A DNA stretch of 64,000 nt. It comes from a virus. The stretch covers positions 26,430-90,429 of the IMG/VR virus record IMGVR_UViG_3300017729_000001; one strand, written 5' to 3'. The notes below the pieces were generated by a model. That model ran no database searches and had not been told where the DNA came from. It saw nothing but the letters and a program-made list of their open reading frames with translations. Shown here piece by piece: positions 36,982 through 50,601 of the stretch (positions are counted from its first letter, which is position 1; every line of letters starts with the position of its first letter). Made by a program: the position numbers and the translations under genes.

Positions 36982-38178
36982 TTATAATGATTTTAATACA
37001 GTTGCTTGATAAGCAAAATCTCCATCGCTTGGATAATAAAATGGGTTCAAAGTACCAGATACATTTTCTAGCATTACACCTTGTACATTCATCATAATGA
37101 ACCCTCTGAATCTAGGCAACTGACCTCTAGGTATATTGAATTGCGTATTTGGATAAAAGTAATTATCAATGACACGCTTAACCCCTCTGACTGCTTTAAT
37201 AGCATTCACTAAGTCAATCCATTGAATGATTCCACCCTCTTCCCAGAATCTGTGGTCAATCAATTTACTTAAATTTTTTTGTGCTTCTTTTCTAATCGTA
37301 TCAGTAGAAAAGGATGGCTCAAGGTCAACACGACAACTAATATCAATTGGGTAGTAAACTACATTCACAAATTTGATTCCATAGTTTTGAAGTCCATTAG
37401 GCTTGAACTCATTCATATTCAAAAATTGCTCTGCCTTTAATCTGAAATCTGTAAGTTGAGCTGGACTGAAATCAGCACCATTAACGCTACCAACTCCAAT
37501 ATTAAGTTCTCCTTGATTATCAAGTCCGTGATTATAAACTCTAAGCACATTTGGATTAAACTTCCTCAATACTTGCTCTAAATACTGTATTGTCCCACGT
37601 GCTAACACATTTATTTCTTCCTTTATTCTTTCCCTAAACATATCGTCATCCTCAGCTTGTCTGCCACCTGTTGCTCCGTATTCATTAATACAATAAGCAT
37701 GACCAGTTGGTGCTGGAGTGACGCTTGTGATACTTAATGGGTCAACATTAGTTTCTTCTCCAAATGCTAAACTTTCTACTTTCACATATGTAAACCCCTC
37801 TACTGGTATGGTGGTTAGAACTTGAGTTGCGAAATCTTGTCCTTGTCCTTTAAAGACATGTGTTCCTGGTATATAAGTTGTTCCAGGTGTTCCTACCACT
37901 CTAACAAAAGTTGAGCTAGCAATCGCACCGAATCTTCCAGCCACCCCTCGTAATTCAGCAATGGTATCTAAATATGAGCCATAGGCTGAATCTGGAAATA
38001 GGTGTGATTCTATTACAGATACATCTTTTAATATCTTTTGAGACAGTTTTGCTGCTCCAAAAGCAATTCCATTTAAAACTGAACCCTCAGACACTTTAGT
38101 GACTTGGTCAGTTTGGTTGAGCAATGTTTCTACAAATATTTGCTTTAATTCTTCTACAGGTGTTATTTTTGTAATCAT
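36982..38178 (-). CDS. Baseplate J-like wedge protein (gp6/J family)
   Basis: 398 residues. Typical J-family features: an N-terminal helix region (SEGSVLNGIAFGAAKLSQKI), LDTIAELRGVAGRFGA, the GTTYIPGTHVF strand motif, EYGATGGRQAEDDDMFRERI, and a C-terminal small domain (VVYYPIDISCRVDLEPSF). Family members build the baseplate wedge ring of contractile tails. It overlaps the gp25-like candidate upstream by 4 bases. Confidence 0.85.
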   Translation of the reverse strand: MITKITPVEELKQIFVETLLNQTDQVTKVSEGSVLNGIAFGAAKLSQKILKDVSVIESHLFPDSAYGSYLDTIAELRGVAGRFGAIASSTFVRVVGTPGTTYIPGTHVFKGQGQDFATQVLTTIPVEGFTYVKVESLAFGEETNVDPLSITSVTPAPTGHAYCINEYGATGGRQAEDDDMFRERIKEEINVLARGTIQYLEQVLRKFNPNVLRVYNHGLDNQGELNIGVGSVNGADFSPAQLTDFRLKAEQFLNMNEFKPNGLQNYGIKFVNVVYYPIDISCRVDLEPSFSTDTIRKEAQKNLSKLIDHRFWEEGGIIQWIDLVNAIKAVRGVKRVIDNYFYPNTQFNIPRGQLPRFRGFIMMNVQGVMLENVSGTLNPFYYPSDGDFAYQATVLKSL

Positions 38179-40311: not shown

Positions 40312-41295
40312 TCAATCTGTATTTGTTAGTTCAGATAAAATGGTATCCAGCTGACTCTTTATTTGAATAAATGTAGCTGAGTTAATTGGCGTACCACTTG
40401 GTCCAAATGCTGTTGGAACAGTCAGTTGAGTTATTCCGTCAATAATTTCTTCAATTTTTCCTACTAAGGTTTCACCCTTAACCATTGGCTCAGCACTATC
40501 TTCTTCTCCAAAAACTATTTTGCTTGAATCTTCGGCTTTTATCTGAATCCTATTCTCATTGATGTAAACTTTATTTCCCCATTCATCTTCATAAATGAAT
40601 CTTTCAGTTTCTTCTTCTTCATTTGAATTCATTTTTATCCTAGCCTTTGAAACTCCATCTATTCCATTGACTCCTAATTCAAATGTTTTGTCGCTCATTT
40701 GGACAACCTTATTACTCGCCCTCATAAGATAATCACCATCACTCTCTACGATAAATTGACCGTCAGATTGAGTTCCCGCAATCCTGAAATGTATCCTTGG
40801 TATCTTTTCTTGATTTTTCCCTAGAACTGTTATAGTCAATATTCCATTCTCTGGATTCATGTCTATATCAACCATGTCTCCAAGATTGCTCACTCTGGTA
40901 GTTCTTTTTTGGTTTTCGCTTAATGGATGAAAATCATCTTCGTGTTTTAAAGTTGCGATGATTATTGGCTCATTATGTTTAGGCAAATTAATCCAAACTA
41001 TGGGACTTCCTAACTTTCCCACTACAGATGGTATTTTTATTCTCTGTAATACCTCTCTGTCTATTAGACAGTTGTGAAAGTGAGGGTGGTCCATACCTCC
41101 AGAAATTGAAACCCTACCTGTTCTGTAAACATCTTCTATATAATCATTGGGGTCAACACCAGCTGGAATTATTATGTGTCCTACACCACAAGCTAAATTT
41201 CCTGTTGGAATTCCTTTTGTTCCAATTATTTCGTTTGGGTCAGGTGATGTATCAAAATCATTACCTCTTATCCATTGTTTTTTCCAATCAAACAT
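40312..41295 (-). CDS. Baseplate central spike, gp5/VgrG-like
   Basis: 327 residues. The N-terminal 110 residues (GRVSISGGMDHPHFHNCLID, IVWINLPKHNEPIIIATL) look like an OB fold, as in gp5 and VgrG. The middle is a run of short strands (NGILTITVLGKNQEKIPRIH, GDYLMRASNKVVQM, KVYINENRIQIKAEDSSKI), a pattern of a needle-like beta-helix. A helical C-terminus follows. No lysozyme domain is seen; the peptidoglycan-cutting part seems to be on the hub gene upstream. Confidence 0.72.
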   Translation of the reverse strand: MFDWKKQWIRGNDFDTSPDPNEIIGTKGIPTGNLACGVGHIIIPAGVDPNDYIEDVYRTGRVSISGGMDHPHFHNCLIDREVLQRIKIPSVVGKLGSPIVWINLPKHNEPIIIATLKHEDDFHPLSENQKRTTRVSNLGDMVDIDMNPENGILTITVLGKNQEKIPRIHFRIAGTQSDGQFIVESDGDYLMRASNKVVQMSDKTFELGVNGIDGVSKARIKMNSNEEEETERFIYEDEWGNKVYINENRIQIKAEDSSKIVFGEEDSAEPMVKGETLVGKIEEIIDGITQLTVPTAFGPSGTPINSATFIQIKSQLDTILSELTNTD

Positions 41296-43343
41296 TATTC
41301 GTCCATTTTATATCTACAGAAACTGAATTGTTTCCTTTTTAGAAAGAATTTAAACACTGGGTCATTTACTTTCCAATTCACTCCTTTTACTGGTTCTTCA
41401 ACTTCTTTATCTCTCAACCATTCATCCATTATAAAAAAGGCAATTCGTTGTTTCGCTTTTCTTTTAAATTCTCTTTTGGTAGTGTCTCCAAATGCTTTCT
41501 TTTCTTCTTTTGAATATGACTTAACCTTTTTAGGCACTAGTGATATTTTATTCTCCAAAGCACTTTTGCTTTCCGATGGGTGTTTCTCCATATAAGCATC
41601 CACTATGGCATTCTTTAAGGTCTTTGCTCTATTCTTAGGCAAAGTTGAGTTATTACCACCCTTATCAGAATCTATATATCCAACACATCTAAATGTAGGA
41701 CACTCTGGATACTTTTCAATCATTGCTACTGCGTATTCAATATTTGCTTTATTTTCAGCAACTAATTCTTTTCTCAATTCTGGAAATTCTTTAATTTGAG
41801 TTTCCATTTTCTTATCCACTGTATCAGTAGCTGGTGGCCACTTTTCGTTCAAATCAATTAAATAATTTCTATTGTTGTCAAAGTACACCTCAGTTTGGTC
41901 ACCCTTTATCTTTTCCTTTTCGATTTTTATTTTTGGTGGTGGGTCATCAAAAAGAATTAAATTCCAATAATTATTTTCTTCAGTAGTTTTTGGAGCCTGA
42001 CTGTGAGCCTTTTCTACTCCTCTTGAAACTTGTATAGTTGTGACCCACTCAGCACTTCCATCGATGTATGTGAATCTGTGTTGTACTCCGTCAACGTAAA
42101 ATTCTTCATTAGTTGGCCAATAATGAATCTTATAACCCCTCTTCACAGGTCGCATCCCTTTTATTGTTATTGTTCCCTCTCTAGTAAATGGAAGATACAT
42201 ATTTGACTCAACCATATATCTTAAATCTTCCAGAGCCTTATCAAACATCTTCTTTCCACTACTTTGTTTCAAGAATGTAAGATAATTACTGACTTGTGAA
42301 TTAGGTTTTGAACCAAACACTTGAGCATACTCTTCAAAGAAAACTGCAGTCACATGAGCAAATATTTGACTTTCATCCGAAATAAATGAACCCTTTGGTA
42401 TTATTTGATACCAACTATAAATTGGACCATTGTACCATTTAAGGTCATCAGCTATTACATCAGTTGAAGAAATTGTACCTTGGTCCATGAGTAATGACCA
42501 CCCATTATAATCAAATGGTGCTCTTCTGGCATTAAAATAAAATTGGTCTCCAATAGTATCTCCCCAAAACTGCATCCATGGGTCTTGTGCAACTTTCTTT
42601 ATATAGTTTATCAAACTTCCTTGACTATTGGCAATAGAACTATCTGCTACTGTTTGAGCAAGTGACCATCTGTCTGCCCTCATTTTTATTATTTGCCAAA
42701 TTCCTTGAGCTGGTATCTTTTCTACATTTTTTATTGTTGGTGTAGGTTTCTTCAACACCTTGTCAGATTCAGTGTCTGTATAAATTGTAGTGTCTATTCC
42801 TAAATCTGTACTCCAATCATACGCAACAACTAAATTCTTAGGAATGGTGACTTCAGAATCGTCAGCAAGCACATATCCATTTTCATCTATCTTTCCAGCC
42901 TTTGCTAGTTTCCTTAGTTCTGTGAATCCAAGTCCAAATGAATAATCAAAGTGATGTTGTTCATTTCCTACTTTAAAATTACCACCCCATCTTAAACCAA
43001 ATTGCTTTCCTATCGCAGCAACCTTTTTTAACATTGACTTATTCCTAGTGAAACTTTTACCATTCCAAACATAGGTGTCCATTGCTAAGCCTAGCTCATG
43101 AGAACTATATCCAGGTGGTGACGCATATATTTTACTACGTCCAGCCAAGTAATCATTTCTTAATTCTGATTGGTGACTTCTTGAACGATAGCCTGAGTAA
43201 AATTTTAACTCCAACCCCTGGTTTCTACATGCTGTTTCCCAAGACAAAAAAAGTTGTCTCACTTTAGGATGTAACCCTTCACGTTGTCTTCCGTTGACAA
43301 AGCCACCCTTTATAAATTTTAAATTGTTATCTAGTGTGCTCAT
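41295..43343 (-). CDS. Baseplate hub fused to M15 peptidase and OmpA-like domain
   Basis: 682 residues with three parts. 1-150: M15/VanY-type D,D-carboxypeptidase or endopeptidase: YSGYRSRSHQSEL, SSHELGLAMDTY with Zn ligands His82 and Asp89, and NEQHHFDY with Glu128 and His131. 200-480: hub-like segment (PWMQFWGDTIGDQFYFNARR, APFDYNGWS). About 525-640: an OmpA-C-like peptidoglycan-binding domain (RCVGYIDSDKGGNN, LPKNRAKTLKNAIVD, KRKAKQRIAFFIM). The tail tip would thus both bind and cut the cell wall. It overlaps the spike gene by 1 base. Confidence 0.82.
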   Translation of the reverse strand: MSTLDNNLKFIKGGFVNGRQREGLHPKVRQLFLSWETACRNQGLELKFYSGYRSRSHQSELRNDYLAGRSKIYASPPGYSSHELGLAMDTYVWNGKSFTRNKSMLKKVAAIGKQFGLRWGGNFKVGNEQHHFDYSFGLGFTELRKLAKAGKIDENGYVLADDSEVTIPKNLVVAYDWSTDLGIDTTIYTDTESDKVLKKPTPTIKNVEKIPAQGIWQIIKMRADRWSLAQTVADSSIANSQGSLINYIKKVAQDPWMQFWGDTIGDQFYFNARRAPFDYNGWSLLMDQGTISSTDVIADDLKWYNGPIYSWYQIIPKGSFISDESQIFAHVTAVFFEEYAQVFGSKPNSQVSNYLTFLKQSSGKKMFDKALEDLRYMVESNMYLPFTREGTITIKGMRPVKRGYKIHYWPTNEEFYVDGVQHRFTYIDGSAEWVTTIQVSRGVEKAHSQAPKTTEENNYWNLILFDDPPPKIKIEKEKIKGDQTEVYFDNNRNYLIDLNEKWPPATDTVDKKMETQIKEFPELRKELVAENKANIEYAVAMIEKYPECPTFRCVGYIDSDKGGNNSTLPKNRAKTLKNAIVDAYMEKHPSESKSALENKISLVPKKVKSYSKEEKKAFGDTTKREFKRKAKQRIAFFIMDEWLRDKEVEEPVKGVNWKVNDPVFKFFLKRKQFSFCRYKMDE

Positions 43344-45007
43344 TATTCGCCCTCTTCTTCATTATCTGAACCTACTCCATCCTTGTTATGAATTGGTTCG
43401 TCTATTTCTACTTGAAATTGCGTTCTTCTGTCTCCATATGAATCGAAAACCTTAGATGGCATAACCTCTATGTTACACAATCTACTCATTAACAAGTTCA
43501 TTACATATCCTACATTTCTAGCATCTGTATTATACAATGTTTCAATTAATCCACTTGTTATTAATCGGTTGACTCCAAGACTTCCTAATGCTTCAACTTT
43601 ATTTAAAGTATTGACTTCATCACCTTGCCTTGGTATATCTACATTGTTGAATGCCGACTCATCATTGTCTGGATTGGAGTAACTTTTTTGAAAAAAGTAT
43701 GTCCCATCTTCAACCAACAGTTTCATACAATCTCTACCTGATACTTGTATAGTCACATCAGATGATTCAGCATTAAAACTTATTGTGTTCGTGTCAACCA
43801 TTCCAATCATTAAATTAGGTTTCCACTGTAGTTCTTCAACTGAGTGAAAAAAGTCATCTATGGCTGGTCTTGGTTGCCAAGAACCTTCATCAAATATATC
43901 CCTTCTTTCATCCATCCCTATAAAAATGACATCATTTTCCGCAACTAGATTTTTAAAAAAGAACTCAGACCTTTTTCCAAGAAAAGTTATTTGGTCATTA
44001 GCAGTACTATATTCATCATGCAAACTTACACTTCCATCGTATTGATTTGCTTGTGCTCTTTTTCCATACGTTTTATCTTGATTCTCATTTTGTTGTGCAT
44101 TAACTTCTTCAGCCCACTTTATTCTTTCTGTTTCATTCAAATCTCTAGTGGTCTGTGTTTTAAAAGCATAATTTTTTATTTTCTTTTCAAAGTAAGCATG
44201 ATAATGAGCATTACTTACAAACCAACTTCCTGAACCTGTTCCATATCCATCTTCACCTATCTCGCATGCTATATCTCCAATCACAGGTGCCAAGGTCAAA
44301 TTAAATTGCCCCCCAGCTTCAGTTTGATTGAGACTCATCTGTTGTATAAATGGAGTCAAATCGAATACTGATGTTGGATTGAATCCTTTGTCACCCATTA
44401 AAGACTTACACCAAATCCAAACTACAAGTTTTGGTGCTTCCTTTTGGGTCATATTATATTGGTCATTGTCTCCACCTGTTGAACCTTGCTTCACCCATCG
44501 TTCCGCAGTTTTGCGTTGTAAACTTCCGTCAGTATCTGTATAAGTGCCAAGAATATCCCAGAAACTGAATTCACTTCTGCTTCCTAATGTAGCTGAAAAC
44601 GCAAAGTTCTCGTCAGGAATGTTATCTGGTTCTTTCTGGTTCTTTAGTCTGAAATTATTTACTCTGTCGATTGGAGCAACTACATTGGTTTGATTCACCA
44701 ATATATCTCGTTGCAGGTTTGACGACTCAACGTGAACTATCAAAGGCCAAGGACATGGATAAACTTGGTTTATATCATCAGCATCCTTATCACCTGGCTC
44801 ACCATCCTTATCTATGAAGCCTGCCCTGAATTTTGTCTTATCATCATAAGCCTCAAATATAAGTTGTCGATTGCTTATGCCCTCATCATTCTCTACATCT
44901 AGCCATTCATTGACATCTTGGTTTATCTTGAAGAACTCTAAGACTTGACCAATGTTAGATGTCCATCCAGTTTCTCCATTATATGTTAGTTGTATAAATT
45001 TACTCAT
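43343..45007 (-). CDS. Baseplate hub protein (N-terminal half)
   Basis: 554 residues. Beta-rich with VTIQVSGRDCMKLLVEDGTY, the 'V.VsGRD..KLL' motif of gp27/XkdQ-type hubs, near residue 425. The C-terminus is acidic (SDNEEEGE). The next gene supplies further hub-like sequence plus enzyme domains, so the hub function appears to be split over two genes. Overlaps both neighbours by 1 base. Confidence 0.7.
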   Translation of the reverse strand: MSKFIQLTYNGETGWTSNIGQVLEFFKINQDVNEWLDVENDEGISNRQLIFEAYDDKTKFRAGFIDKDGEPGDKDADDINQVYPCPWPLIVHVESSNLQRDILVNQTNVVAPIDRVNNFRLKNQKEPDNIPDENFAFSATLGSRSEFSFWDILGTYTDTDGSLQRKTAERWVKQGSTGGDNDQYNMTQKEAPKLVVWIWCKSLMGDKGFNPTSVFDLTPFIQQMSLNQTEAGGQFNLTLAPVIGDIACEIGEDGYGTGSGSWFVSNAHYHAYFEKKIKNYAFKTQTTRDLNETERIKWAEEVNAQQNENQDKTYGKRAQANQYDGSVSLHDEYSTANDQITFLGKRSEFFFKNLVAENDVIFIGMDERRDIFDEGSWQPRPAIDDFFHSVEELQWKPNLMIGMVDTNTISFNAESSDVTIQVSGRDCMKLLVEDGTYFFQKSYSNPDNDESAFNNVDIPRQGDEVNTLNKVEALGSLGVNRLITSGLIETLYNTDARNVGYVMNLLMSRLCNIEVMPSKVFDSYGDRRTQFQVEIDEPIHNKDGVGSDNEEEGE

Positions 45008-48642: not shown

Positions 48643-50601
48643 TTAAGCACTTAAATTAGCGTCAAGCATAAACCCTGTAACAAATATCTTGTTTATTGGT
48701 CCATTAGGAACATATCCATACTTGACGTCATAATAGTCTTGAATCAGTCTCACAGTTACGTTCTTGAAATTAATAATCAAGTTGTCCGTTGAATCTGTTG
48801 CTGTCCTAGAAATCAAATAACTTTCAACAAATGACTTTACGTCAGCTGGTGTAATAGTTCCGATGTTGTTGCCAATAAATAAAGGTCTCATGTTTAAAAT
48901 AAGTTCTTTATTAAGTTGAGCAGCAATTCGCATAACAGAAATTTCAAATGAAGTTCCATCTGGATTAATCAATTGTGTATTTCGTTGTAGTGAGTTGATT
49001 CCTTGATTCACTACGTTTCCAATTCCAGGAACAAAACGATTATGAAGAACTCCACCCTGAAGTGCTTTCTCTCTTTCTTTTTGTCCTAATGGATGAATAA
49101 AGTCTGTCCAAATTAAATTCTTAAAAGTAATCGGTGTCTGAGGTTCAAGTCCACCTAAACGACCAACAACGTTGGCAGCATGGTATATCGCATCTAACTT
49201 CTCAAGTCCTACTCCGTTTCCAATTATAGGTCTTTTAACTCCACTATGTACCACTGTAACATCAGATGAGTCATAATACTTAGCAACATCAATCGAACTA
49301 TCAGGTGAACCTTCAAATTTGGTAATGTCTTTTCCTCCACCTACAATCATAAACTTGTCCATTTCAGCATCATTCTGAATATGGTTCCAAATTTTAGTAT
49401 TTTGAGTTCCAGCAGCATCAGCACCCCATCTATCGGCTAAAAAGAATGTATTATCTAATTCCTTTATTGCTTCTAGTGTAGCATCTAAATCATCAGCAGC
49501 ATAATCTGTCGCCCCATTCTGAGCAAGGTTTGGGCTTGAGTAGTTTGTTAAATCTACAGAATCTACAGCACCAGTACCATTAATTTGCCATGAGTCAGAA
49601 TCTAGTTCAAACCTCGCTGAAAAAGCAAAGTCAGTTTTACACCACTGAATCAATTCGTCAATATTGTCAAATTCTAACGATGTAGCAATCAAGTTTGGAG
49701 CAGATTGACTAGTGGTCAATCCTGATATTTCGTTTCCAGCCATCGAAAGTCCTCTATATGTACCCTCGTAAAATTCAATCATGAATTTCGTTGGATCATT
49801 TTCTCCTTGTAGCATTCTTGCGCCATATCCTGTAGCTAGTTGAACTCCATCAACACCTCCTGAAAAACCAGTGATAGTTGAAGTCACAGTTCCAGTCAAA
49901 GCTGTAGTCAATACAAATGAGTTACCACCTGAACCTACACCTGGCGTTGATACAACAATTACTTCTCCACCTTGTTCGTATGCCGTGAATCCTGAACCAG
50001 CAGAATTTATATCAGCAATAATTGCTGCTCTTAAATCAGCAGCTGAGGCTGTCGTTGTCGTAAACACACCTGATAATATACTTGTACCACCTACTAATAC
50101 ATCAACAGTATCTCCAATTGTAATCGGTGCTAAGAAATCAATCTTACCCTTTGCTACTGTTTCGTCAAGTAAACCATTAGAGCCTGCGCCCTCATTTTTG
50201 GTTAGTATCTTTACATAACCTCCATTACCACCTCCACCTAAATAGGTGAACTCAATCTCAGCTGGTGTAGTTTCACAAGCACGTACAATATGTACAGTCT
50301 CTGGTCCACTAGCACCTGAGGCTGGTGTAAATATATACTGAGCTAAATCGTATAACAACCCTCCACGTACAAATTCTTGGAAATCGTTGACATCTTGGAA
50401 CGAATAAACCGAACCAAGCCCATCAGCAAGTTGTCCTTTAATACCTGAGCCACCGCCATAGCCTTCACCTGACCCTGTGTCAATTATACATACATTCCCA
50501 AATGAGAAAGTGCTTGGCTGAGCTGGAATTCCACTCTTGACTTGAGCATAAACCCCTGGCTCAATTATCTTTTTTCCGCCAAAATTTACTATTGTTGCCA
50601 T
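48643..50601 (-). CDS. Contractile tail sheath protein
   Basis: 652 residues, typical length. MATIVNFGGKKIIEPGVYAQ at the N-terminus is the classical sheath beginning; the C-terminal domain has HPLGQKEREKALQGGVLHNR, VPGIGNVVNQGINSLQRNTQ and the strand-helix ISVMRIAAQLNKELILNM, used in sheath-sheath and sheath-tube contacts. Central inserted beta domain (about 120-260, Gly/Thr-rich). It establishes the myovirus type. The tube gene follows 21 bases downstream. Confidence 0.95.
   Translation of the reverse strand: MATIVNFGGKKIIEPGVYAQVKSGIPAQPSTFSFGNVCIIDTGSGEGYGGGSGIKGQLADGLGSVYSFQDVNDFQEFVRGGLLYDLAQYIFTPASGASGPETVHIVRACETTPAEIEFTYLGGGGNGGYVKILTKNEGAGSNGLLDETVAKGKIDFLAPITIGDTVDVLVGGTSILSGVFTTTTASAADLRAAIIADINSAGSGFTAYEQGGEVIVVSTPGVGSGGNSFVLTTALTGTVTSTITGFSGGVDGVQLATGYGARMLQGENDPTKFMIEFYEGTYRGLSMAGNEISGLTTSQSAPNLIATSLEFDNIDELIQWCKTDFAFSARFELDSDSWQINGTGAVDSVDLTNYSSPNLAQNGATDYAADDLDATLEAIKELDNTFFLADRWGADAAGTQNTKIWNHIQNDAEMDKFMIVGGGKDITKFEGSPDSSIDVAKYYDSSDVTVVHSGVKRPIIGNGVGLEKLDAIYHAANVVGRLGGLEPQTPITFKNLIWTDFIHPLGQKEREKALQGGVLHNRFVPGIGNVVNQGINSLQRNTQLINPDGTSFEISVMRIAAQLNKELILNMRPLFIGNNIGTITPADVKSFVESYLISRTATDSTDNLIINFKNVTVRLIQDYYDVKYGYVPNGPINKIFVTGFMLDANLSA

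Follow-up and report, generated by a model that had tools for sequence, protein, structure and literature searches.

A two-gene tail hub with a predicted M15 peptidase and an OmpA-C-like domain, and its relatives with fixed payload sites

The stretch of DNA analysed here, which we call the window, is 64,000 nucleotides long and covers positions 26430-90429 of a virus record of 90,429 bases. It holds a pair of tail hub genes flanked by a sheath gene on one side and a baseplate J gene on the other:

48643..50601, (-): tail sheath, context (phrog_279, 3.6e-28)
43343..45007, (-): ORF A, first hub half, 554 aa, its stop overlapping the ORF B start by 1 base (TAATG)
41295..43343, (-): ORF B, second hub half, 682 aa, ATG start, with M15 peptidase, core and OmpA-C-like domain
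40312..41295, (-): probable spike gene, 327 aa, directly downstream of ORF B (VgrG 6u9e, E 0.044)
36982..38178, (-): baseplate J/wedge protein, context (Pfam/PHROG matches 2.1e-14 and 1.1e-36)

The genome also carries a head protease and a portal, which together with the sheath and baseplate J identifies a contractile-tailed phage. Tape measure and spike genes presumably lie either side of the hub genes, as judged from position; for 40312..41295 the weak VgrG match also points to a probable spike. By hub, sheath and baseplate J, the nearest isolates among the matches listed were Chryseobacterium phage MA9V-3 and Bacteroides phages DAC16, DAC19, DAC20, DAC22, DAC23 and SJC03. Since these isolates infect Chryseobacterium or Bacteroides, a Bacteroidota host is likely for the window phage.

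Within ORF B, we could distinguish five segments:

42861..43343, (-): M15 (VanY/Ply500-type) peptidase domain, residues 1-161 (H82, D89, E128, H131)
42711..42860, (-): linker, residues 162-211, predicted disordered (pLDDT <50 at 163-217)
41943..42710, (-): hub core, second half of a gp27/phi812-type hub, residues 212-467 (fold, HMM, fused relative L036)
41394..41930, (-): OmpA-C-like domain, residues 472-650 (D558, R572; profiles and fold)
41325..41378, (-): conserved C-terminal helix motif FKFFLKRKQ, residues 656-673 (motif and predicted structure)

This anatomy is well supported, as sequence profiles and predicted structure agree. An AlphaFold2 model of ORF B (mean pLDDT 78.7, pTM 0.50) was compared with known folds by VIA-align (Z) and Foldseek (E). 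The original prediction, made from the letters of the DNA, had placed a tail hub, an M15 peptidase and an OmpA-C-like domain in one gene, and Pfam, PDB profiles and the predicted fold concur with it. The structure prediction that it had proposed gives an M15 fold at residues 1-161 and an OmpA-C fold at 472-644; the OmpA-like domain had been thought to begin around residue 520, but both model and profiles place its start near 472. With a pTM of only 0.50, the model does not fix the placement of these domains relative to the hub.

Residues 212-467 had no hub match in Pfam or PHROG. By tblastn, this core matched MA9V-3 (2e-42), Bacteroides phages (4e-29) and SPO1 gp12.1 (2e-7), and its model (214-467) aligned with the phi812 baseplate hub chain over 229 residues (Z 15.7, 2.9 A; Foldseek E 4.9e-8). 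In MA9V-3, DAC16, SJC03 and most relatives, the ORF A-type and ORF B core-type segments are found in one chain. HMMs assign the two halves of one such fused relative, L036, to the ORF A and ORF B families, and the model of this relative (pLDDT 72.6, pTM 0.74) resembles phi812 (Z 24.7, 386 residues), T4 gp27 (1k28_D; Z 18.4, 325 residues), Mu gp44 (Z 18.2) and VgrG1 (Z 17.0). The folds predicted for the core and for fused L036 indicate that a gp27/VgrG-type hub is shared in the window between ORF A and ORF B. What had been described as one hub gene does have the hub fold, but it is not the whole hub: ORF B is the second half, and the other half is the upstream ORF A. The window hub would presumably lie in the virion as a ring at the end of the tube, trimeric like that of gp27. 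The core fold and the gene order shared with relatives exclude that an endolysin was mistaken for a hub.

Scans of viral contigs yielded 4, 6 and 47 loci, many of them overlapping. The core was present in 62 loci and in the window, and we counted 44 distinct loci, 41 of them from viral contigs. Copies or near copies were dropped (L005, L009-L013, L016-L021, L027, L030, L041, L043 and L062, the last five being called copies from matching coordinates and scores only), and so were L056, which looks frame-broken, and L029, which is cut at a contig end. Two scans of cellular genome contigs for prophages found no relatives. In the known-phage collection, the clear relatives among the matches listed (40 of 150) were MA9V-3 and seven further records, six of them Bacteroides phages and one faecal; hubs of the Bacillus type were distant from the window hub. 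In L053, L054, L057 and L060, the core is broken by an insert of about 55-75 residues near core position 80.

The two hub halves are adjacent or overlapping genes in 11 of the 44 loci (window, L001-L004, L014, L015, L022-L024 and L037), and this recurrence argues against a frameshift or an assembly error. On a tree of the 44 cores, the split state requires two changes. In all 11 split hubs, the second gene product begins with an extra domain. We rejected the rule that split hubs always carry an enzyme: one was recognised in 10 of the 11 complete ones (8 M15, 2 M23), and the domain of L014 is unrecognised, with no Pfam or useful PHROG match. The stretch in place of the M15 domain there (L014:6605-7174) may be another wall enzyme. 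The incomplete L029 (L029:3-1762, ending at the contig edge) seems to be split within a helical insert and has no recognisable enzyme, so an enzyme on split hubs is a tendency and not a rule.

The M15 domain of ORF B matched Pfam VanY (5.6e-11) and Peptidase_M15_4 (1.7e-6), both above cut-off, and residues 1-161 also matched a PHROG endolysin family (1.4e-18). A 10-row M15 profile retrieved Ply500 (2vo9) at 9e-20, and the model of residues 1-161 aligned with Ply500 over 138 residues (Z 13.5, 3.3 A; Foldseek 2.3e-6). The four zinc-site residues named beforehand (H82, D89, E128 and H131) are all at those positions, in the pattern SxHxxGxAxD ... [DE]xxH that we take to be the M15 family signature. 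Zinc binding and peptidase activity are predicted from this homology and from the kept residues. According to the profile alignment, Ply500 has Asp opposite E128. We assume that Glu at this position is the VanY-type carboxypeptidase state and Asp that of the Ply500 endopeptidase; cleavage of a load-bearing bond is thus not assured, and the domain may be a carboxypeptidase that leaves cross-links intact. Together with the presence of VanY and LdcB among the fold matches, this Glu would suit a domain that does no more than trim or recognise stem peptides, whether as a D,D- or L,D-carboxypeptidase or as a remnant without activity. We regard this as somewhat unlikely, because the best matches in both sequence and fold are the endopeptidases Ply500 and LysB4, and because the motif is kept in 8/8 split-hub M15 rows, bar Asp for Glu128 in L022 and L023.

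Other hydrolases occur on related hubs. In a Pfam scan covering the 44 hub loci except L026, L036, L045 and L059, a hydrolase was found above cut-off on 19 of the 44 hubs: M15 on 11 (window, L001-L004, L015, L022, L023, L031, L038 and L050), M23 on five (L024, L025, L037, L049 and L053), GH24 on three (L025, L038 and L044), NlpC/P60 on L028 and SLT_3 on L047, with L025 and L038 carrying two each. Those of L038 (L038:3607-6843) stand in tandem at the N-terminus, a GH24 domain of the T4-type lysozyme family and an M15 domain. An M23 match in L054 fell below the cut-off (26.8 versus 28.7 bits), weak matches were seen in L034 (M15_3, 0.096) and L048 (SLT, 0.018), and the MA9V-3 hub has a transglycosylase by PHROG (6.6e-7). 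Counting weak matches as present, 19/44 loci, four of them outside the Pfam scan, show neither a recognised hydrolase nor an OmpA-like domain. Split hubs carry the enzyme at the start of the second gene product; single-chain hubs have it either N-terminally or in the stretch that separates the core from the C-terminal helix. Between the two hub halves, no hydrolase was found above the Pfam cut-off in the 29 single-chain hubs scanned out of 33; several single-chain hubs have unmatched inserts there. Hydrolase class requires 12 changes on the core tree (L014, L034 and L048 left out).

For ORF B taken by itself, Pfam gave no PF00691 match. A profile of eight relatives, all below the Pfam OmpA cut-off, had OmpA-type proteins as its six top PDB matches (best 2.9e-5), so that a chance resemblance was rejected. 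An 11-row profile reached OprF-C at 1.2e-9 and Acinetobacter baumannii OmpA at 5.3e-9. The OmpA-C fold foreseen for this region is present, as predicted secondary structure also indicates: the model of residues 472-644 matched OprF-C over 118 residues (Z 11.7, 4.5 A) and A. baumannii OmpA with its bound pentapeptide over 115 residues (Z 11.7, 2.9 A), TagL being also among the fold matches (Z 11.1), whereas the Foldseek match of the ORF B model to OmpA was weaker (5.7e-3). D558 and R572 align with D271 and R286 of A. baumannii OmpA (3td3), the pocket Asp and Arg that bind diaminopimelate according to the accessible text of PMC6572160. The residues invariant in the 11-row alignment are, in window numbering, F488, D489, G555, D558, L568, R572, A573 and R633. 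From these sequence features, we propose that the OmpA-like domain binds peptidoglycan.

This domain is present in 11 of the 44 loci (window, L001-L003, L014, L015, L022-L024, L032 and L048), in every case between the core and the conserved C-terminal helix. The first nine were called by a model built from their own family, L032 and L048 by Pfam. PF00691 scores above its cut-off (27.2 bits) in L024 (31.2), L032 (44.2) and L048 (29.4), and below it in L022 (4.3e-5) and L002 (6.9e-4 as a fragment, 6.1e-3 as the whole protein); the other six calls, which have no Pfam match, rest on the alignment and the eight-relative profile, and for the window also on the fold. Related hub fusions, which the original prediction had suggested looking for in Bacteroidota phages, do exist among the 44 loci (11 with M15, 11 with the OmpA-like domain), but by Pfam neither domain is on the hubs of MA9V-3, DAC16, SJC03 and MT835500, four of the eight clear relatives in the known-phage collection.

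The hub of L004 (L004:5944-7428) is 49% identical to the window hub in the best segment and keeps M15, and it has intact core and C-terminal helix with no OmpA-like domain between them; the domain is therefore dispensable in some relatives. L003 and L004 are sisters on the core tree (98/98 support). Leaving out L035, whose contig ends there, the OmpA label needs four changes on the 44-core tree, at least three of them forced by well-supported branches, which indicates that the domain was gained or lost several times. Such a clean absence in L004, the diverged sequence with no Pfam OmpA match in ORF B, and the long extra stretches inside the domain in several rows of the 11-row alignment would fit a baseplate spacer or protein-protein module that has lost peptidoglycan binding, leaving only the peptidase to matter for entry. 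We find this distinctly unlikely: the pocket residues D558 and R572 are invariant in 11/11 rows, with identity to the window domain down to 19%, and in relatives hydrolases are found in its place, pointing to peptidoglycan as the target of both.

The domain could also act once the wall has been crossed, by docking the spent tip and sealing or fixing the channel during DNA ejection, with no help to the peptidase. The position of binder and enzyme at opposite ends of the core chain agrees with such a late role, and so does L032, which has the OmpA domain and no recognised hub hydrolase. Against it, 10 of the 11 OmpA-bearing hubs also bear an added domain N-terminally (eight have a recognised hydrolase, L014 its unrecognised domain and L048 the weak SLT match), and we consider this late role unlikely.

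At the C-terminus, a motif like FNFFLxRRQ is found in 39/44 hubs, versus 1.0 expected from shuffles, a descriptive comparison since the pattern was drawn up after viewing the sequences; a relaxed form is seen in four others, and the L035 hub is truncated at the end of its contig. Ahead of this motif we found OmpA, a transglycosylase, NlpC/P60, SLT_3 and M23 plus GH24; MA9V-3 is the nearest isolate to have a hydrolase there. Together, these hubs are a family with fixed payload sites and swappable hydrolases (M15, M23, GH24, NlpC/P60 and transglycosylase), in which peptidoglycan hydrolases from several unrelated families take either a terminus of the hub or the one position ahead of the helix.

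Fusion to the hub suggests that the ORF B hydrolase is part of the virion and acts on the wall during entry. Outside the window, a glucosaminidase (PF01832, 1.2e-17) was assigned by eye to G000:14527-15054 (L064:527-1054). Its product is small, has an N-terminal membrane segment and, on the same by-eye reading, is the sole glucosaminidase match among the scanned ORFs, which makes it a candidate endolysin. With a separate candidate endolysin present, the hub peptidase is probably unnecessary for lysis. Also outside the window, L063:1306-2650 has a 205-aa gene beside a 246-aa membrane-anchored gene, possible lysis genes by eye only.

Our preferred reading is that ORF B is the second half of a contractile-phage tail hub whose tip holds the sacculus while the tethered M15 domain cuts, and we think it probable. 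A gp27-type ring would be built from two polypeptides, ORF A and ORF B, the gene split yielding an extra N-terminus with M15 tethered by some 50 flexible residues, and the loop just ahead of the C-terminal helix bearing the OmpA-C-like domain. Sheath contraction would push the tube with its hub and spike across the outer membrane. By binding meso-DAP stem peptides that are not cross-linked, the OmpA-like domains would keep the tip in place on the sacculus, while M15 on its tether would open a path for the tube by cutting nearby stem peptides. We give about even chances to the more specific idea that the tip grips the sacculus by DAP recognition while cutting, on a hub platform with fixed payload sites, namely a fission-made terminus for a hydrolase and a pre-helix loop for a hydrolase or an OmpA-type binder. 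If this is true, the phage uses on the attacking side the anchor fold by which cells fix their own machines to the wall.

To our knowledge, the passage of tail tips across peptidoglycan has been worked out in detail for only a few Gram-negative phages. PMC11948020 describes hydrolase domains as common in baseplate and needle proteins, and two reviews of virion-associated lysins (PMC6116005, PMC5380687) mention neither OmpA nor M15 in the main text available. In the open-licence literature searched, we found no phage hub described as carrying an OmpA-type domain. The distinct penetration design that had been claimed therefore holds in part: a hub lysin is established (SPO1 gp12.1), and the window belongs to a family of hubs and is not one odd fusion, while an OmpA-type hub binder was not found described. 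In the literature searched, neither this binder on a hub nor its replacement by hydrolases at the same position is described. The hub family may be seen as a modular scaffold for lysins against Bacteroidota, and natural pairs with and without the OmpA-like domain, such as L003 and L004, allow the part played by wall binding to be tested directly.

Among known systems, the lysin-bearing hubs of the Herelleviridae phi812 and SPO1 come nearest, the hub of phi812 being, among solved ones, the most similar to the window core as well as to L036, and SPO1 gp12.1, which matches the core, carrying the annotation of a tail protein that has lysin activity. They differ in having a one-chain hub, Gram-positive hosts and no OmpA-type domain that we found reported, whereas the window hub is made by two genes. 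T4 gp27-gp5 shares the gp27-type hub fold seen in L036, the contractile tail and a wall enzyme at the tip. The T4 lysozyme, however, sits on the spike gp5, while the window enzyme is on the hub, is an M15 and comes with an OmpA-type domain. Compared with the M15 endolysins Ply500 and LysB4, the best matches of its N-terminal domain, the ORF B peptidase belongs to a tail hub and is not a free endolysin, and it has Glu where Ply500 has Asp. Finally, OmpA-C, Pal and TagL share the fold and the D271/R286-equivalent residues of the window domain, and in TagL, a type VI secretion component, this fold already serves a related machine. TagL acts in the attacking cell; the window domain instead sits, inserted in the hub chain and beyond the Pfam cut-off, on a phage tail tip that would face the wall of the prey.
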